DNA of 64,000 nucleotides from Micromonospora sp. WMMD1155 (GTDB taxonomy: Bacteria; Actinomycetota; Actinomycetes; Mycobacteriales; Micromonosporaceae). Position numbers and translations under genes: made by a program. Under the pieces are notes generated by a model. The model was not told where the DNA came from and made no database searches. It saw only the letters and a list, made by a program, of their open reading frames with translations. Below, one piece after another: positions 2,696 to 8,606 of this stretch (within the stretch, counting starts at the first letter, position 1; each line of letters opens with the position of its first letter). The DNA is taken from assembly GCF_029581275.1 (NCBI RefSeq), contig NZ_CP120742.1:2702501-2766500 (forward strand), written 5' to 3'.

Positions 2696-5600
2696 GTGTC
2701 GGTCACCGACGACATGCGGGCAGAGTCACGCTCCGGCGGAGGTCAACCACCCGCCCAGCGGGACGGCCAGTTCGACAAGACCCCGCCGCAGGACGTGGCA
2801 GCCGAGCAGTGCGTTCTCGGCGGCATGCTGCTCTCCAAGGACGCCATCGCCGACGTCGTCGAGATCCTCAAGACCAACGACTTCTACCGGCCGGTCCACG
2901 CCACCATCTTCGACACCATCCTGGACATCTACGGTCGGGGTGAGCCCGCCGACCCGATCACCGTGGCCGCCGCCCTGACCGACTCCGGTGACCTGGCCCG
3001 CATCGGCGGCGCGCCGTACCTGCACACGCTCATCGCCAGCGTGCCGACCGCCGCGAACGCCGCCTACTACGCGCGGATCGTCAGCGAACGGGCGGTGCTG
3101 CGCCGGCTGGTCGAGGCCGGCACCAAGATCGTGCAGCTGGGCTACGGCACCGCGAGCGGCGGCAGCCGCGACGTGGACGACATCGTGGACCTCGCCCAGC
3201 AGGCCGTCTACGACGTCACCGAACGCCGGGTCAGCGAGGACTTCGCGGTCCTGGCCGACATGTTGCAGCCGACGCTGGACGAGATCGAGGCGGTGGGTGC
3301 GCAGGGTGGTGTGATGACCGGTGTGCCGACCGGCTTCAGCGACCTGGACCGGCTGCTCAACGGCCTGCACGCCGGTCAGTTGGTAATCGTCGCGGGACGA
3401 CCTGGGCTGGGCAAAGCGCTCGCACTCGACACCCCACTGCCGACCCCGGGCGGCTGGACCACGATGGGCGAGATCCGAGTGGGTGATCAACTGATGGCGG
3501 CGGACGGCAGTCCCACCACCGTCACGCACGCCTTCGACGTGATGCATGGCCGGCCCTGCTACGAAGTCGAGTTCTCCGACGGCACGGTCATCGTGGCGGA
3601 CGCGGAGCACCTGTGGAAGACGACCACCCGAGCGAGCAGACGGCAGGGGCCGGTGCGGCAGAGCCGGCGCTGGTCCGAGTCGTCGATGGCCAACGTACGC
3701 GCGGCGCACGAGAGTCTCGGCGCCAGGGGCAACCAGCCCGTCACACTCTTCGACACGATTGCGCAGGTCGGCCCGGAGTTCCGGCATGTCCTGCACACCG
3801 TCGCCCGCGAAGTCGGGTCGATCGGCCGGATCAGCCGCCCCATCGTCCGAGCCGGCAGGACGCGGAACTGGGCGGCGCCCGGCTATCCGGCCGGACCTCT
3901 TCTGAGCGCACTTCTTGAGCGGACCGCACGGAAGGGCAACGCTGACAGCCAGGCCGACCACGGCGGTGTCGTCACCACTGCCGAGATCGCGGCCACACTC
4001 CGCACTGACACCGCCGATCGACGGCTCAACCACGCGGTACGGAACACTGCCCCCCTTCAGCTCCCGGACCGGGAGCTGTTGATCCCGCCGTACACATTGG
4101 GAGTCTGGCTCGGTGATGGGCACACCCACGCCAGCCGCTTCACCACCGCGGATCCGGAGATGGTCACGCACATCGAGGCGGACGGCTTCTCGGTGCGGCC
4201 CGGTGGACCGATGGTCTACACCATCCTCCTGGAGGCAGAGCCTGTCGTTCCGGGGATTGGGGTCTGCGTGGACTGTGGCGTCTCCACCCGTGCGTTGCGC
4301 GAGAATTCAGCAACTCGGAAGTGTGCCGACTGCCACAACAAGAACCGTTCCTTCGTCGGGCTGCTGCGCACGATCGGGGTGGCAGGCGACAAGCACATCC
4401 CAGGCGCCTACCTGCGCGCCTCCGAGGCCCAGCGCCGCGCGTTGCTGGCGGGCCTGATGGACACCGACGGCACTGTCGCCCCTTCAGGCAACCTGCAATA
4501 CACGTCGACCTCCAAGCGGCTGGCAGAGGACGTGCGTGAGCTCGTGGTCAGCCTCGGATACCGCTGCACTGTCAACCGGAAGTCCGTACGCGGCCGCACT
4601 CCGGAATCGTCGATCGCCTACACGTTGAACTTCTCCACACCGGACCCTGTCTTCCGGCTGAAGCGGAAACAGGATGCACACGCCGAACGGCGCCGTACCG
4701 CCTCCGACGTTCGGACGACCTCCCGGTTCATCGTCGACGTCCGGCCGGTCCCCAGCGTGCCCGTGCGCTGCGTGACGGTCGACAACGACGAGCACCTGTA
4801 CCTGGCCGGTCGGGCCATGATCCCGACGCACAACAGCACAGCAAGCATGGACTTCGCCCGGAACGCGGCCATCAGGGCGAACCAGGCGGCGGCCATCTTC
4901 TCGCTGGAGATGAGCAAGGTCGAGATCGTCATGCGACTGCTCTCGGCCGAGGCGCGGGTGCCGTTGCACGTGCTGCGCAGCGGGCAGCTCTCCGACGACG
5001 ACTGGACGAAGCTGGCTCGCTGCATGGGCGAGATCAGCGAGGCGCCGCTCTTCGTGGACGACACGCCGAGCATGAACCTCATGGAGATCCGGGCCAAGGC
5101 GCGGCGGCTCAAGCAGCGGCACGACCTCAAGATGATCGTGGTCGACTATCTCCAACTGATGACCTCACCGAAGCGCACCGAGAGTCGTCAGCAGGAGGTC
5201 GCGGACCTCTCCCGTGGCCTCAAGCTGCTGGCCAAGGAGGTCGAGTGCCCGGTCATCGCGGTCAGTCAGCTGAACCGTGGCCCGGAGCAGCGCACCGACA
5301 AGCGCCCCCAACTGTCCGATTTGCGGGAATCTGGCTGCCTTACGGCGGAGAGCCGAGTGATTCGGGCCGATGACAACACCGAGATCACACTAGGTGAATT
5401 GTTGTCCAACAACACCAAGGACATTCCCGTCTGGGCGTTGGACGAGAGCCTTCGCTACACAGCCCGCACCATGACCCATGTCTTCCCCAGCGGCACTCGC
5501 GAAGTGTTTCGGCTGACCCTTGCGTCGGGCAAGCAGATCGACGCCACGGCGAACCATCCCTTCCTGGCCTTCACGGGGTGGGTGCCACTCGGTGAACTGT

Positions 5601-6796
5601 CGCCGGGAGATCGCATCGCCACGCCACGTCACCTACCGCCGCCGATGATGACCCGCCCGTGGGCCGAGGCGGAGGTGGTGATGTTGGCGCACCTGTTGGG
5701 CGACGGATCCTTCGTGCGACGTCAACCCATCCGGTACGCGAGCTGTGACGAGCTGAACCTTCAGGCCGTGTCCGACGCGGCGAAGCATTTTGGGATTTCG
5801 GCCGTCCGCGACGATTATGCGGCTGCGCGGGTGACGACCCTGCGGCTGCCAGCGCCCTATCGCCTGGCTCGCGGTCGGCGCAACCCGATCGCCGCTTGGC
5901 TGGACGACCTCGGCCTCTTCGGTTTGAGATCGCACGAGAAGTTTCTCCCTCCGGCCGTCTTCAGCCTGCCCAAGGAGCAGATCACCTCCTTCCTGCGGCA
6001 CCTGTGGGCCACCGATGGTTCGGTGACCGTCAACAGCTCAGGCCGCGGCGGGCGCGTCTACTTCTCGTCCACGAGCCGGCGAATGCTCGAAGACATCTCT
6101 CGACTCCTTCTGAGGTACGGCATCACGGCCCGACTGAAGGTGGTGCCAGTTTCGGGGCACCGTCCTCAGTACACGCTCGACATTTCCGGCCGGGACGACC
6201 AGTTGAGGTTCCTGCGCGAAGTCGGCGTGTACGGGCAGCGGTCGGACGGCTGCGCCGCTCTGCTTGCCGCGTTGGAAACGACGGAGAGCAACACCAATGT
6301 CGACACCGTGCCGCGCGAGGTATGGACCAGGGTCAAGGAGATTCTGGTCGAGCAGGGCATGACTCACCGTGAGTTCGCGAAGGCCATCGGCACCCAGTTC
6401 TGTGGAAGTACTCTCTGGAAGCGTGCGCCCAGTCGCTCCCGACTGGCGGCGATCGCCACCGTCCTTGACGCGGCTGACCTGGACCTGCACGCGACCAACG
6501 ACATCTTCTGGGACTCGGTCGTGTCAATCGAGTCGATCGGCGAGCAGGAAGTGTTCGACGCGACCGTCCTCGGTAAGCACAACTTCATCGCCAACGGCAT
6601 CGCCACGCACAACTCGATCGAGCAAGATGCCGATGTTGTCATCCTTCTGCACCGTGACGACTACTACGACAAGGAGTCGCCGCGGGCGGGCGAGGCGGAT
6701 TTCATAATTGCCAAGCATCGGAATGGGCCAACTGACACCGTAACCGTCGCTGCGCAATTGCACCTGTCGAGGTTCGTGGACATGGCGATCGGATGA
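2696..6796 (+). CDS. dnaB: Replicative DNA helicase DnaB, interrupted by two inteins
   Basis: Ring-shaped 5'-3' helicase that unwinds DNA at the fork. The precursor is 1366 residues; removing two inteins leaves a normal 467-residue helicase (residues 1-240, 714-880, 1307-1366). The N-terminal domain starts at PPQDVAAEQCVLGGMLL. The P-loop GRPGLGK|ST is split by intein 1, Walker B is in IVVDYLQLM, and motif DLRESG|SIEQDADVV is split by intein 2. GTG 2696 is chosen because GGAGG (2683-2687) sits 8 bases upstream and the reading frame further upstream has no homology. The stop (6794-6796) overlaps the start of the downstream endonuclease gene by 4 bases. Codons next to each intein site and in the last 33 codons are unusually rich in A/T at the third position compared with the rest of the extein. 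Confidence 0.97.
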   Translation: MSVTDDMRAESRSGGGQPPAQRDGQFDKTPPQDVAAEQCVLGGMLLSKDAIADVVEILKTNDFYRPVHATIFDTILDIYGRGEPADPITVAAALTDSGDLARIGGAPYLHTLIASVPTAANAAYYARIVSERAVLRRLVEAGTKIVQLGYGTASGGSRDVDDIVDLAQQAVYDVTERRVSEDFAVLADMLQPTLDEIEAVGAQGGVMTGVPTGFSDLDRLLNGLHAGQLVIVAGRPGLGKALALDTPLPTPGGWTTMGEIRVGDQLMAADGSPTTVTHAFDVMHGRPCYEVEFSDGTVIVADAEHLWKTTTRASRRQGPVRQSRRWSESSMANVRAAHESLGARGNQPVTLFDTIAQVGPEFRHVLHTVAREVGSIGRISRPIVRAGRTRNWAAPGYPAGPLLSALLERTARKGNADSQADHGGVVTTAEIAATLRTDTADRRLNHAVRNTAPLQLPDRELLIPPYTLGVWLGDGHTHASRFTTADPEMVTHIEADGFSVRPGGPMVYTILLEAEPVVPGIGVCVDCGVSTRALRENSATRKCADCHNKNRSFVGLLRTIGVAGDKHIPGAYLRASEAQRRALLAGLMDTDGTVAPSGNLQYTSTSKRLAEDVRELVVSLGYRCTVNRKSVRGRTPESSIAYTLNFSTPDPVFRLKRKQDAHAERRRTASDVRTTSRFIVDVRPVPSVPVRCVTVDNDEHLYLAGRAMIPTHNSTASMDFARNAAIRANQAAAIFSLEMSKVEIVMRLLSAEARVPLHVLRSGQLSDDDWTKLARCMGEISEAPLFVDDTPSMNLMEIRAKARRLKQRHDLKMIVVDYLQLMTSPKRTESRQQEVADLSRGLKLLAKEVECPVIAVSQLNRGPEQRTDKRPQLSDLRESGCLTAESRVIRADDNTEITLGELLSNNTKDIPVWALDESLRYTARTMTHVFPSGTREVFRLTLASGKQIDATANHPFLAFTGWVPLGELSPGDRIATPRHLPPPMMTRPWAEAEVVMLAHLLGDGSFVRRQPIRYASCDELNLQAVSDAAKHFGISAVRDDYAAARVTTLRLPAPYRLARGRRNPIAAWLDDLGLFGLRSHEKFLPPAVFSLPKEQITSFLRHLWATDGSVTVNSSGRGGRVYFSSTSRRMLEDISRLLLRYGITARLKVVPVSGHRPQYTLDISGRDDQLRFLREVGVYGQRSDGCAALLAALETTESNTNVDTVPREVWTRVKEILVEQGMTHREFAKAIGTQFCGSTLWKRAPSRSRLAAIATVLDAADLDLHATNDIFWDSVVSIESIGEQEVFDATVLGKHNFIANGIATHNSIEQDADVVILLHRDDYYDKESPRAGEADFIIAKHRNGPTDTVTVAAQLHLSRFVDMAIG
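3416..4834 (+). mobile_element. DnaB intein 1 (class-3-like, Ala1) with LAGLIDADG endonuclease
   Basis: 473-residue in-frame intein (precursor residues 241-713) inserted in the Walker A loop between GRPGLGK and ST. It begins with Ala (ALALDTPLPTPGGW), so it lacks the usual Cys/Ser1 nucleophile. It has the class-3 W-C-T set: Trp at intein position 67 (EHLW, block B), Cys at 452 (VRCVTVD, block F) and Thr at 471 (PTHN, block G), followed by Ser+1. Known class-3 inteins, including mycobacterial DnaB examples, start splicing from the block F Cys. A homing endonuclease domain is present, with LAGLIDADG motifs LGVWLGDGH and LLAGLMDTDG. Between them is a CxxC...CxxC pair (CVDC, CADC; about 4264-4335) that resembles a zinc knuckle. 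Splicing and nuclease activity are inferred from intact motifs. Confidence 0.93.
5336..6613 (+). mobile_element. DnaB intein 2 (Cys1 class) with LAGLIDADG endonuclease and HTH-like region
   Basis: 426-residue intein (precursor residues 881-1306) inserted in the conserved DLRESG|SIEQDADVV motif. It begins with Cys1 (CLTAESRVI) and ends VLGKHNFIANGIATHN with Ser+1, the ordinary class-1 arrangement. Block B is visible as ATANHPFL. Two LAGLIDADG motifs (AHLLGDGSF near 5690 and HLWATDGSV near 6000) indicate an endonuclease domain. Between it and the C-terminal splicing blocks lies a helix-turn-helix-like stretch (MTHREFAKAIGTQFCGS, about 6358-6410) that could bind DNA. The sequence is less GC-biased than host genes. 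All visible splicing residues are present, so splicing is expected. Confidence 0.93.
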
Positions 6797-7728
6797 GAGG
6801 CACGAGTGCCCGTCTGACGCCGGCGCAAGTCGAGGATGCCGTGCATCGTGCGGCAACGGGCGAGAGTCTGACTCGAATCGCCAATTCGTACGGTGTCAGT
6901 AGGCAGGCGATTTCTGGTCTGTTGCGTAGGCGAGGGGTGCCTGCGCGGTCCGTTGCCAAGTTGACCGAATTGGAACGCGTGGAAGCGGTCAGGCAGTACG
7001 TCGAGGGTCTGTCGCTGGCAGAGGTTGCGAAGATATTCGGGCTTACAGAGCCTGGAATGCGGGGCTTGTTGATACGGCGCGGTGTAGTGATCCGCCGGGT
7101 TGTTCACACGCTTCGTCACGATGCGTTCGACTTGTTGACGCCGGAGGCATGTTACTGGCTCGGGTTTCTCTTCGCGGACGGGTGCGTCACGTACCGCGCG
7201 CGCCATCTCCCGCAGATCTCCGTTGGCCTCGCCCAGCGCGACCGCGAACACCTTGTCTCGCTTCGTACGTTCCTCGGTTCGACCAGCAGCATCTCAGAAC
7301 CTAGCCCCACGCACGGGTCGTGCCAGTTCTCGGTGCGCTCGACTCGCCTGGCAGAGCGCATGATCCAGTTGGGGAGGTACGAAGGCCCGCTCGGCGAACG
7401 ACTGGGCGAGTCACGCGACTTCTGGCGTGGTGTCGTCGACGGAGACGGCTCAATTGGAAGTTACCGGCGGCCGGGTTATCGATCGTCGGAGTTTGCGCAA
7501 TTCAGGCTGGTGGGAAGTCAGCGTCTGTTGGACGCATTCACTGCATTCCTCAGGAGTCATGGCATCTGCGGCCTCTCTGTTCGCCCCCATAAATCGATCT
7601 ACGGGGTAGGAACGACCTGTGGGCCGGCGAGGGAAATAATTGGTTTGTTGTACGCAGGAGCGTCAGTTGCATTGGCGCGTAAGGCGAGAACCGCGGAGGA
7701 GATCCTGGGCGGACACTTGGCCGGCTGA
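6793..7728 (+). CDS. Free-standing LAGLIDADG homing endonuclease overlapping the end of dnaB
   Basis: 311 residues. Two N-terminal helix-turn-helix units are visible (SLTRIANSYGVSRQAISGLL about 24-43; SLAEVAKIFGLTEPGMRGLL about 74-93), then two LAGLIDADG motifs (YWLGFLFADGCV about 121-132; FWRGVVDGDGSIG about 209-221). No intein splicing blocks flank it, so this is a stand-alone nuclease rather than a third intein. ATG 6793 overlaps the dnaB stop as ATGA, suggesting translational coupling. It uses many A/T-ending codons unlike neighbouring host genes, which is a sign of recent transfer. A nuclease that targets the dnaB 3' end is the simplest reading, but the target is not known. It ends 82 bases before a convergent gene. 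Confidence 0.85.
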   Translation: MRGTSARLTPAQVEDAVHRAATGESLTRIANSYGVSRQAISGLLRRRGVPARSVAKLTELERVEAVRQYVEGLSLAEVAKIFGLTEPGMRGLLIRRGVVIRRVVHTLRHDAFDLLTPEACYWLGFLFADGCVTYRARHLPQISVGLAQRDREHLVSLRTFLGSTSSISEPSPTHGSCQFSVRSTRLAERMIQLGRYEGPLGERLGESRDFWRGVVDGDGSIGSYRRPGYRSSEFAQFRLVGSQRLLDAFTAFLRSHGICGLSVRPHKSIYGVGTTCGPAREIIGLLYAGASVALARKARTAEEILGGHLAG

Positions 7729-7810
7729 CGAACGCTCGCAGCATTGCGAAGAAGGCGGCGTGGTCGACGACATCCACAACATCAGGCGAAAGTGGCGAAG
7801 CGCGACCAGC

Positions 7811-8488
7811 TCAGCCGAGCAGTGGGAACCAGCCCGCCGACTCGCCCAACTCCAGCCGGTCCCGGTCGGTGAGCGGCACGCGTCCGGTGGCCTTCAGGAG
7901 GAAATCGTGGTCGGTCCAGGCGGTGGGGCGTACGGTGTCGTCGCTGAGCAGGCCGTCCATGGTGGTCACCGCGACGCGTGTCGCCAGAGGACCCGGGGGC
8001 GGCGCGCCGGGCAGGTCCACGATCAGGTCCAGGTGGTGGACGACAGCCTCGGTCGTCAGGGTGGCGAGGAAATCCGGTACGCGCAGCACGTGCCCTTGCG
8101 TGGTCACGTACCCCTCGGGGTCGGTCGACGCGGCGGCGCGGACCGCAGCCGGTGCGGTTTCTCGCCAGAGCCGGACGATTCCGGTCGGGCTGTCGAAGGC
8201 GCCGGCCGAGCGTCGGACCCACCAGGCGTGCCGGGTGGCTTCGTCGTCACCGCCGGGGAAGTCACGCCAGTAGCTCACGTCGTCGACGTCGGCGGGGCCC
8301 TCCGTGGGGCTGGCCAGTGCGACGAGCGCGCGTTGGGCGTCGCCGAGCACGTGTAGGAGCAGGTCCGCGACGAGCCAGCCGTGGCAGCGGGTGGATCGTT
8401 GCAGGCCGGCGTCGTCCAGGCCGTCGACCGCCGCGCTGATCCCGGTGTACGCCTGGGCCAGGGCCTCGTCGGCCCGGATCACGGTCAT
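7811..8488 (-). CDS. Maleylpyruvate isomerase (MDMPI)/DinB-fold, mycothiol-family protein
   Basis: 225 residues. The N-terminal half (ALAQAYTGISAAVDGLDDAG, then RCHGWLVADLLLHVLGDAQ) matches the MDMPI N-terminal four-helix DinB-like fold. Conserved histidines are visible in CHGW, LLHVLG and VVHHLDL, the last two being likely metal ligands. In actinobacteria this family includes mycothiol-dependent isomerases and detoxification enzymes. The particular substrate cannot be told. The ATG at 8488 (MTVIRADEALAQ) is preferred to an upstream extension that has no family similarity. The gene converges on the homing endonuclease gene. Confidence 0.8.
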   Translation of the reverse strand: MTVIRADEALAQAYTGISAAVDGLDDAGLQRSTRCHGWLVADLLLHVLGDAQRALVALASPTEGPADVDDVSYWRDFPGGDDEATRHAWWVRRSAGAFDSPTGIVRLWRETAPAAVRAAASTDPEGYVTTQGHVLRVPDFLATLTTEAVVHHLDLIVDLPGAPPPGPLATRVAVTTMDGLLSDDTVRPTAWTDHDFLLKATGRVPLTDRDRLELGESAGWFPLLG

Positions 8489-8576
8489 GCGAACCAGCCT
8501 GGCACGACGGATTCCGCCCACCGATCATCGACGGGGTGGCCGGGGACGCGGCGTGAGGAGCGCACCACGGCGTTGT

Positions 8577-8606
8577 GCCCGGGTCGACGCGTGGATCGAC
8601 CCGGGC
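8577..8606 (-). terminator. Hairpin downstream of the zinc-finger gene
   Basis: Perfect 11-base inverted repeat GCCCGGGTCGA (8577-8587) / TCGACCCGGGC (8596-8606) with an 8-base loop, placed 18 bases beyond the stop of the minus-strand gene at 8625. It has no T tract, so termination is inferred from position and stability. Confidence 0.6.

Follow-up and report, generated by a model that had tools for sequence, protein, structure and literature searches.

The window analysed here is a 64,000-nucleotide stretch of Micromonospora sp. WMMD1155 (GCF_029581275.1; NZ_CP120742.1, positions 2,702,501-2,766,500 of the forward strand), and our subject is a putative free-standing endonuclease gene of HTH-HTH-LAGLIDADG architecture (HTH, helix-turn-helix; 6793..7728, forward strand) directly behind the replicative helicase gene dnaB. 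On the same strand, dnaB (2696..6796; NCBIfam NF005852, 1284 bits) keeps an uninterrupted reading frame from a GTG start at 2696 through a TGA stop at 6794-6796 and contains two inteins: intein 1 in the P-loop (3416..4834, G-K|S) and intein 2 in the DLRESG|S motif (5336..6613), both on the forward strand. Exon 3 (6614..6796, forward strand) follows with 60 codons and the stop. The original prediction of three homing units at dnaB, an Ala1 intein in the P-loop, a Cys1 intein in DLRESG|S and a free-standing LAGLIDADG gene whose ATG overlaps the dnaB stop (here as ATGA), was confirmed in the sequence. Each element also has the LAGLIDADG pair ascribed to it, two such motifs being recognised by eye in each intein and FADG and DGDG in the nuclease.

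The nuclease gene encodes 311 amino acids. Pfam matched HTH_23 and HTH_28 to two stretches each, the helices of the model fall at residues 10-46 and 59-95, and the two LAGLIDADG motifs belong to a pseudo-dimeric LAGLIDADG fold. Neither Pfam nor NCBIfam found a splicing domain, in agreement with the prediction of an enzyme with two HTH units and no splicing blocks, and Rfam gave no group I intron match around the gene at E values up to 1 (5200-8600). The sole Rfam match in that interval was mir-10 at E 0.65, a chance hit, and a group I intron was rejected. The gene thus sits outside introns and inteins; derivation from intein 1 or intein 2 was likewise rejected, as BLASTP gave no significant similarity to either. 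The ADG and DGDG acidic motifs are retained in all 13 intact copies of the genus, and D129, D216 and D218 are invariant in 32 aligned sequences. The median ratio of nonsynonymous to synonymous substitution (dN/dS) is 0.186 in the 38 of 78 pairs with dS below 2, and the gene is under purifying selection. The GC content at third codon positions (GC3) of the gene is 0.61-0.81.

We searched 354 genomes of the family for nuclease relatives at E 1e-10 or better and found them in 24, comprising 23 Micromonospora and one Virgisporangium. The placement behind dnaB exceeds chance, because the relative follows dnaB exon 3 directly, and on the same strand, in 24 of 24 carriers. The proposed association with dnaB therefore held, and the contrary pattern, copies at unrelated loci and never beside dnaB, was looked for in the family and did not appear. 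A further Micromonospora genome, in which the contig ends 379 bp behind dnaB and a remnant is detected at E 4e-4, was counted as a broken carrier, giving 24 carriers among the 160 genomes of the genus. In thirteen of these the frame is open from a start that overlaps the dnaB stop (ATGA in nine, GTGA in three, TTGA in one), and the remaining 11 copies are broken or cut off. In Virgisporangium the gene comes after the dnaB stop without overlapping it. In nuclease-free genomes the DNA after the dnaB stop is intergenic, and in several of them the end of an open reading frame (ORF) of the type seen at 7811..8521 in the window (reverse strand, convergent) was found by eye close behind dnaB, so that this ORF marks the empty locus. 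The dnaB tree requires at least 21 changes to place the 24 carriers, a patchy presence at one locus.

We then compared the dnaB alleles of carriers and non-carriers. A total of 160 further dnaB loci were fetched (153 from the genus, seven from other genera), with 46 added later; together with the window they represent 160 genus members and 47 other members of the family, the latter being 47 of 194 genomes, hand-picked among those with intein-free dnaB, plus the Virgisporangium carrier. Codons are numbered over the 441 extein codons of dnaB. In a first comparison of exon 3, carriers mostly had ATA ATY (I-I) and non-carriers ATY GTN (I-V). The difference lies in codons 409-418, where the usual form is D-F-I-V-A-K-H-R-N-G, with F-I-V-A-K-H at its core; the window has the altered form of this candidate homing site at 6698..6727 (forward strand), gat ttc ATA ATt gcc aag cat cgg aat ggg, encoding D-F-I-I-A-K-H-R-N-G. 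FIIA is present in 12 of 13 intact genus carriers versus 24 of 136 non-carriers, 102 of which have FIVA. The site also follows the state of the copy: it is non-usual in 13/13 intact and 7/11 broken carriers (p 0.03), and each of the four genus carriers that keep the usual FIVA has a broken copy. The carrier allele thus differs at the inferred target in dnaB, the Virgisporangium carrier excepted. Because the gene is under purifying selection and keeps its motifs, the sites vary with copy state, and at least 21 changes are needed on the tree, the pattern is one of invasion, decay and loss, as in homing elements.

Every base of the 441 extein codons was then scanned for association by Fisher tests in 154 of the 160 genus genomes (1019 tests); the six genomes added after the scan include five without exon 1, and the comparison of intact copies with none omits the 11 broken carriers. 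As a positive control, the top signals for intein 1 (codons 211-223) and intein 2 (codons 376-388) fell at their own insertion sites. For the nuclease, the strongest signals were at codons 411-413 (best 1e-8 to 1e-7) and at the junction codon 440, the single strongest column, which is forced by the NTGA start-stop overlap. Codon 416 was likewise prominent among exon-3 columns. When genomes were paired on a tree built from the remainder of dnaB, 10.4 of 15 independent pairs linked ATAA to the nuclease and 0.3 opposed the link (median p 0.002); for intact copies the figures were 8.1 and 0 of 10 pairs (p 0.008). In the intact comparison, differences at 160 control columns from other parts of dnaB reached 3.0 at most. 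Plain FII gave a weaker result (8.7 versus 0.6, p 0.012; intact 6.0 versus 0, p 0.03).

Codon usage singles out the same stretch. Across 298 mutually overlapping ten-codon windows, GC3 of dnaB in the genus has a background mean of 0.946 and a lowest value of 0.872, whereas codons 409-418 have 0.595, and each of the gene's 40 lowest windows is either there or near one of the two intein sites. The value for codons 409-418 is 0.848 in 46 nuclease-free genomes from other genera. In nuclease-free members of the genus these codons are low too (0.611), which would be expected if hosts had escaped by recoding. The rare ATA codon, used 71 times among 3934 isoleucine codons, occurs 29 times at codon 411 and 24 times at codon 390. 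A composition break follows the island: codons 419-439 (6728-6790) have a GC3 of 0.752 in carriers versus 0.926 in non-carriers (p 6e-8; paired p 0.001) and look foreign in carriers, while codons 390-408 show no clear difference (0.849 versus 0.892, p 0.07, with 0.907 and p 0.65 for intact carriers). Paired p values, including that of 0.046 for the exon-2 core, are rough, as the pairing with the nearest non-carrier is imperfect: genomes without exon 1 were compared on exon 2 alone and picked too often, and several carriers share one partner. The divergence controls on exons 1 and 2 in this comparison were spoiled and were set aside.

The two other islands cover codons 205-230 and 370-392 (about 3389-3415 with 4835-4885, and 5303-5335 with 6614-6649, in the window). 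At the intein-1 site, the +1 Ser is spelled TC in 71 of 80 intein-1-free alleles versus AG in 74 of 74 intein-1 alleles, and the TC spelling looks like escape from intein-1 homing. Codon 390 (6641-6643) is ATA in 24 of 160 genomes, three of them with intein 2 and three with the nuclease.

We consider it probable that 6793..7728 is a free-standing LAGLIDADG homing endonuclease gene that spreads behind dnaB by intronless homing, together with an altered, resistant dnaB 3' end. The nuclease would be made by translation coupled to that of dnaB and would cut nuclease-free dnaB within about codons 409-418, 66-95 bp upstream of its own gene. Error-prone repair would be lethal after a cut in an essential, conserved gene, so the survivors would be cells that had copied the element or carried a variant site. 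Repair from a carrier chromosome would bring in the altered site, the last 20-odd codons of dnaB and the nuclease gene, and the composition break fits what repair of a cut in the island would leave. The carrier may be shielded by the alteration of its site, in most cases a change from GTN to ATN (V to I), often preceded by the rare ATA. A broader proposal, to which we give about even weight for and against, is that the element is a natural home-and-rescue drive, in which a nuclease attacking dnaB is joined by a stop-start overlap to a recoded, uncuttable dnaB 3' end, and that repeated waves of the nuclease and the two inteins left three codon-usage scars as hosts escaped by synonymous recoding.

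Several observations weigh against intronless homing into codons 409-418. One intact genus carrier has LIVA instead of FIIA, and the Virgisporangium carrier keeps the usual FIVA in addition to lacking the overlap. Eight of the 24 non-carriers with FIIA have it as ATAA; had they lost a nuclease, an excess of the codon-440 change would be expected, and it occurs in 1/8 of them versus 24/128 of the others. FIIA without the nuclease was therefore not taken as the trace of a lost copy. Carriers and non-carriers differ little in GC3 of the island itself (0.504 versus 0.611; p 0.04 for any copy, p 0.23 for intact ones), and carriers have lower values at the intein-2 island (370-389) as well (p 5e-4; 0.015 when paired). 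Weak mRNA structure ahead of the nuclease start could account for the low GC3 at 419-439. There is a moderate correlation between nuclease distances and those of the dnaB core (Mantel r 0.35, p 0.002), so part of the history of the nuclease may be vertical; for codons 419-439 the correlation with the core is weak (r 0.18, p 0.04) and for codons 390-408 there is none (r 0.02, p 0.44). Tree conflict was accordingly rejected as proof of transfer, and the case for mobility draws mainly on the patchy distribution. Finally, association cannot show whether a change protects the carrier or hitch-hikes with the nuclease.

Hitch-hiking figures in one rival, in which the enzyme is bound to dnaB and homes, with its target elsewhere (the dnaB stop, the end of the downstream gene or the intein-2 site), and the changes at codons 411-416 ride along in the conversion tract. 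The strength of codon 440, forced as it is by the overlap, the GC3 difference at the intein-2 island and the tendency of the nuclease and intein 2 to avoid each other would suit it. We nevertheless judge it unlikely: the island at 409-418 is as deep as those at both intein sites, hitch-hiking leaves unexplained why it is deeper in non-carriers of the genus than in other genera, and there is no clear difference at codons 390-408, which separate the island from the intein-2 site. The depth of the island in non-carriers also tells against selection for expression of the overlapping gene, through weak mRNA structure or re-initiation, as the source of the changes at 409-418 and 419-439. Such selection would account for changes just upstream of the nuclease start and for the lower GC3 of 419-439 in carriers; it leaves the V to I change unexplained by structure, the other two such islands lie at intein sites, and we regard it as distinctly improbable.

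Two further alternatives deserve very little credence. The island has the shape of those at the intein sites and might mark an extinct or unsampled third intein unrelated to the nuclease, yet in the 207 family genomes extracted exon 3 always ran to a stop free of inserts, its tail being altered in one (G219), and base identity at the island follows the presence of the nuclease; a third intein at the island was rejected, none being found in the 207 loci. In G219, dnaB has intein 2, the residues after PTDTV are swapped for a different tail, and the locus is nuclease-free. It is just as hard to credit that the gene is a domesticated DNA-binding protein regulating the dnaB region with cutting lost. 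WhiA, the model for such a protein, is a regulator with a LAGLIDADG domain without nuclease residues and is fixed in its clade. The present gene shares neither property: both acidic motifs persist in the intact copies, the aspartates are invariant, and only 24 of 160 genus genomes have it. Its many tree changes and the 11 broken or cut-off copies out of 24 fit a parasite better.

Beyond the family, nuclease relatives are sparse. A sample of 397 genomes from the order gave no match outside the genus members, and 200 genomes of another family gave none. In a class sample of 394 genomes, seven genomes passed the threshold, with the window's own gene, five HTH pieces and one distant, free-standing LAGLIDADG gene from another family (L267, 1423-2304), whose end was found by eye beside the end of a convergent rtcB-like ORF. 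A very large protein set yielded 469 proteins at E 1e-5, with Nonomuraea and metagenome proteins among the 120 listed. The phrog_4645 profile matches residues 23-304 at E 1e-25, and by this profile the nuclease shares its architecture with phage HTH-LAGLIDADG endonucleases (PHROG 4645). These are distant, with 22.7-25.2% identity over 93-95% among the matches listed (15 of 92 records); two of those listed are labelled intron-encoded, and an endonuclease of this kind is found in the recombinase-gene intron of Staphylococcus phage 812. Among viral contigs (80 loci kept of 81), five have a DnaB-like gene (24-29% identity) on the fetched stretch. In two viral contigs, L333 (2595-3251 with 3594-4100) and L347 (5001-5678 with 6011-6517), a distant nuclease relative of 24-25% identity lies about 330-340 bp upstream of the DnaB-like stretch on the same strand. 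A metagenome-assembled genome of Solirubrobacteraceae (L262, 5953-6831) has a distant relative that is 37% identical across part of the LAGLIDADG domain; it comes immediately after an ssb-like ORF and lies upstream of rplI-like and dnaB-like ORFs (names given by eye except dnaB). A second stretch resembling dnaB exon 3, at 58-90% identity, was seen in five of 11 genus genomes searched (L362-L366).

The two inteins differ in class. Intein 1 has 473 amino acids, begins with Ala and ends in HN before Ser; W (block B), C (block F) and T (block G) were identified by eye in the translation. Class 3 inteins are defined by this triplet (PMC6195587, in the part available), and intein 1, with no nucleophile at position 1, is by its sequence a class-3-type intein. 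Its closest solved chains are 6rix, 6riy and 6bs8, short chains titled 'Replicative DNA helicase', and Hom_end is among its best Pfam stretches. Intein 2 has 426 amino acids, matches PF14890 (Pfam) and TIGR01443 (NCBIfam), and includes LAGLIDADG_3 among its best Pfam stretches; its closest solved chains are 4o1r ('Replicative DNA helicase') and 1mi8 ('DnaB intein'). Cys1, the C-terminal HN, the +1 Ser (Cys1...HN|S) and the splicing blocks identify it, again from its residues, as class 1.

The suggestion in the original prediction that the elements protect or help one another was not borne out, and mutual help was rejected: no pair shows a significant positive link, and dnaB is intein-free in 11 of the 24 genus carriers, the remnant included. 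Intein 1 and the nuclease are independent, with the nuclease in 13 of 74 genomes with intein 1 and in 11 of 80 without it. Intein 2 is present in 1/24 nuclease carriers versus 45/136 non-carriers (p 0.003); the window is the only genome of the 160 with the nuclease and intein 2, and the complete set of three is confined to it. This avoidance is weaker for intact copies (p 0.12) and in tree pairs (median p 0.07), so the tendency is not secure. The further suggestion that each element has its own target stands for the nuclease, which probably targets dnaB apart from both intein sites. Its inferred site is 84-113 bp from that of intein 2, so the repair tract of either element would tend to erase the other, and the relation, if real, is one of competition, not co-operation. 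In Haloferax the inteins MCM-a and MCM-d, whose targets lie close together in one replicative helicase gene, impede each other's homing, according to the accessible part of PMC10643990, and such interference possibly explains the avoidance seen here, where one partner is free-standing instead of both being inteins.

Because codon usage and base association recovered two known insertion sites unaided, plus a third stretch, the combined scan could be used to find the targets of other free-standing homing nucleases. If our reading is right, the locus is a chromosomal case in an essential replication gene, in which the homing cycle, target escape and interference between neighbours could be tested directly; 160 genomes of a single genus sample the carriers, the broken copies and the altered sites, along with three homing elements. 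The inteins are of known kind, since DnaB of M. smegmatis has the same classes at the same sites, DnaBi1 (class 3, P-loop) and DnaBi2 (class 1, H4 motif, a DNA-binding loop), and the new part is the free-standing nuclease. The available text of PMC6195587 describes DnaBi1 as lacking a homing domain, whereas both inteins of the window have LAGLIDADG motifs, and it mentions no free-standing nuclease at that gene. A literature search that covered few subscription papers, some seen in part, found no free-standing nuclease beside a bacterial dnaB.

Other free-standing nucleases near interrupted genes have reportedly been described, namely F-CphI at psbA and the 'fractured gene' endonucleases of split inteins, and these are said to target the intron or intein insertion site; the site inferred here is separate from both intein sites. 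By its inferred mode of spread, the nuclease would work like the seg and mob enzymes of phage T4. In that system, the genes of the carrier are spared through sequence difference. The T4 nuclease genes likewise lie outside introns and inteins, near the conserved gene that is cut (SegF/gene 56, SegG/gene 32, MobE/nrdB), spread by intronless homing with co-conversion of flanks, and in seven cases seem promoterless and use the upstream transcript (PMC2988022, as far as available). They are GIY-YIG or HNH phage enzymes that cut hundreds to thousands of bp away (same source), whereas the present one is LAGLIDADG, chromosomal and has its inferred site at 66-95 bp. The examples of intronless homing in the accessible parts of PMC2988022 and PMC3984707 are from phage, and a 2026 preprint, in the portion available, holds free-standing homing genes to be generally confined to intergenic targets (PMC13405050). 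Unlike T4 seg and mob genes, the window gene has its start codon on the stop codon of its host gene.

The locus also resembles what gene-drive designers call home-and-rescue. In one such design, HomeR, the rescue copy is reportedly recoded. HomeR directs a nuclease at an essential gene and links it to rescue of that gene, as proposed here, and is synthetic, Cas9-based and built in Drosophila, whereas the element of the window is natural and bacterial (PMC7968924, available part). If the likeness is real, each copy of the dnaB element would spread attack and rescue together.

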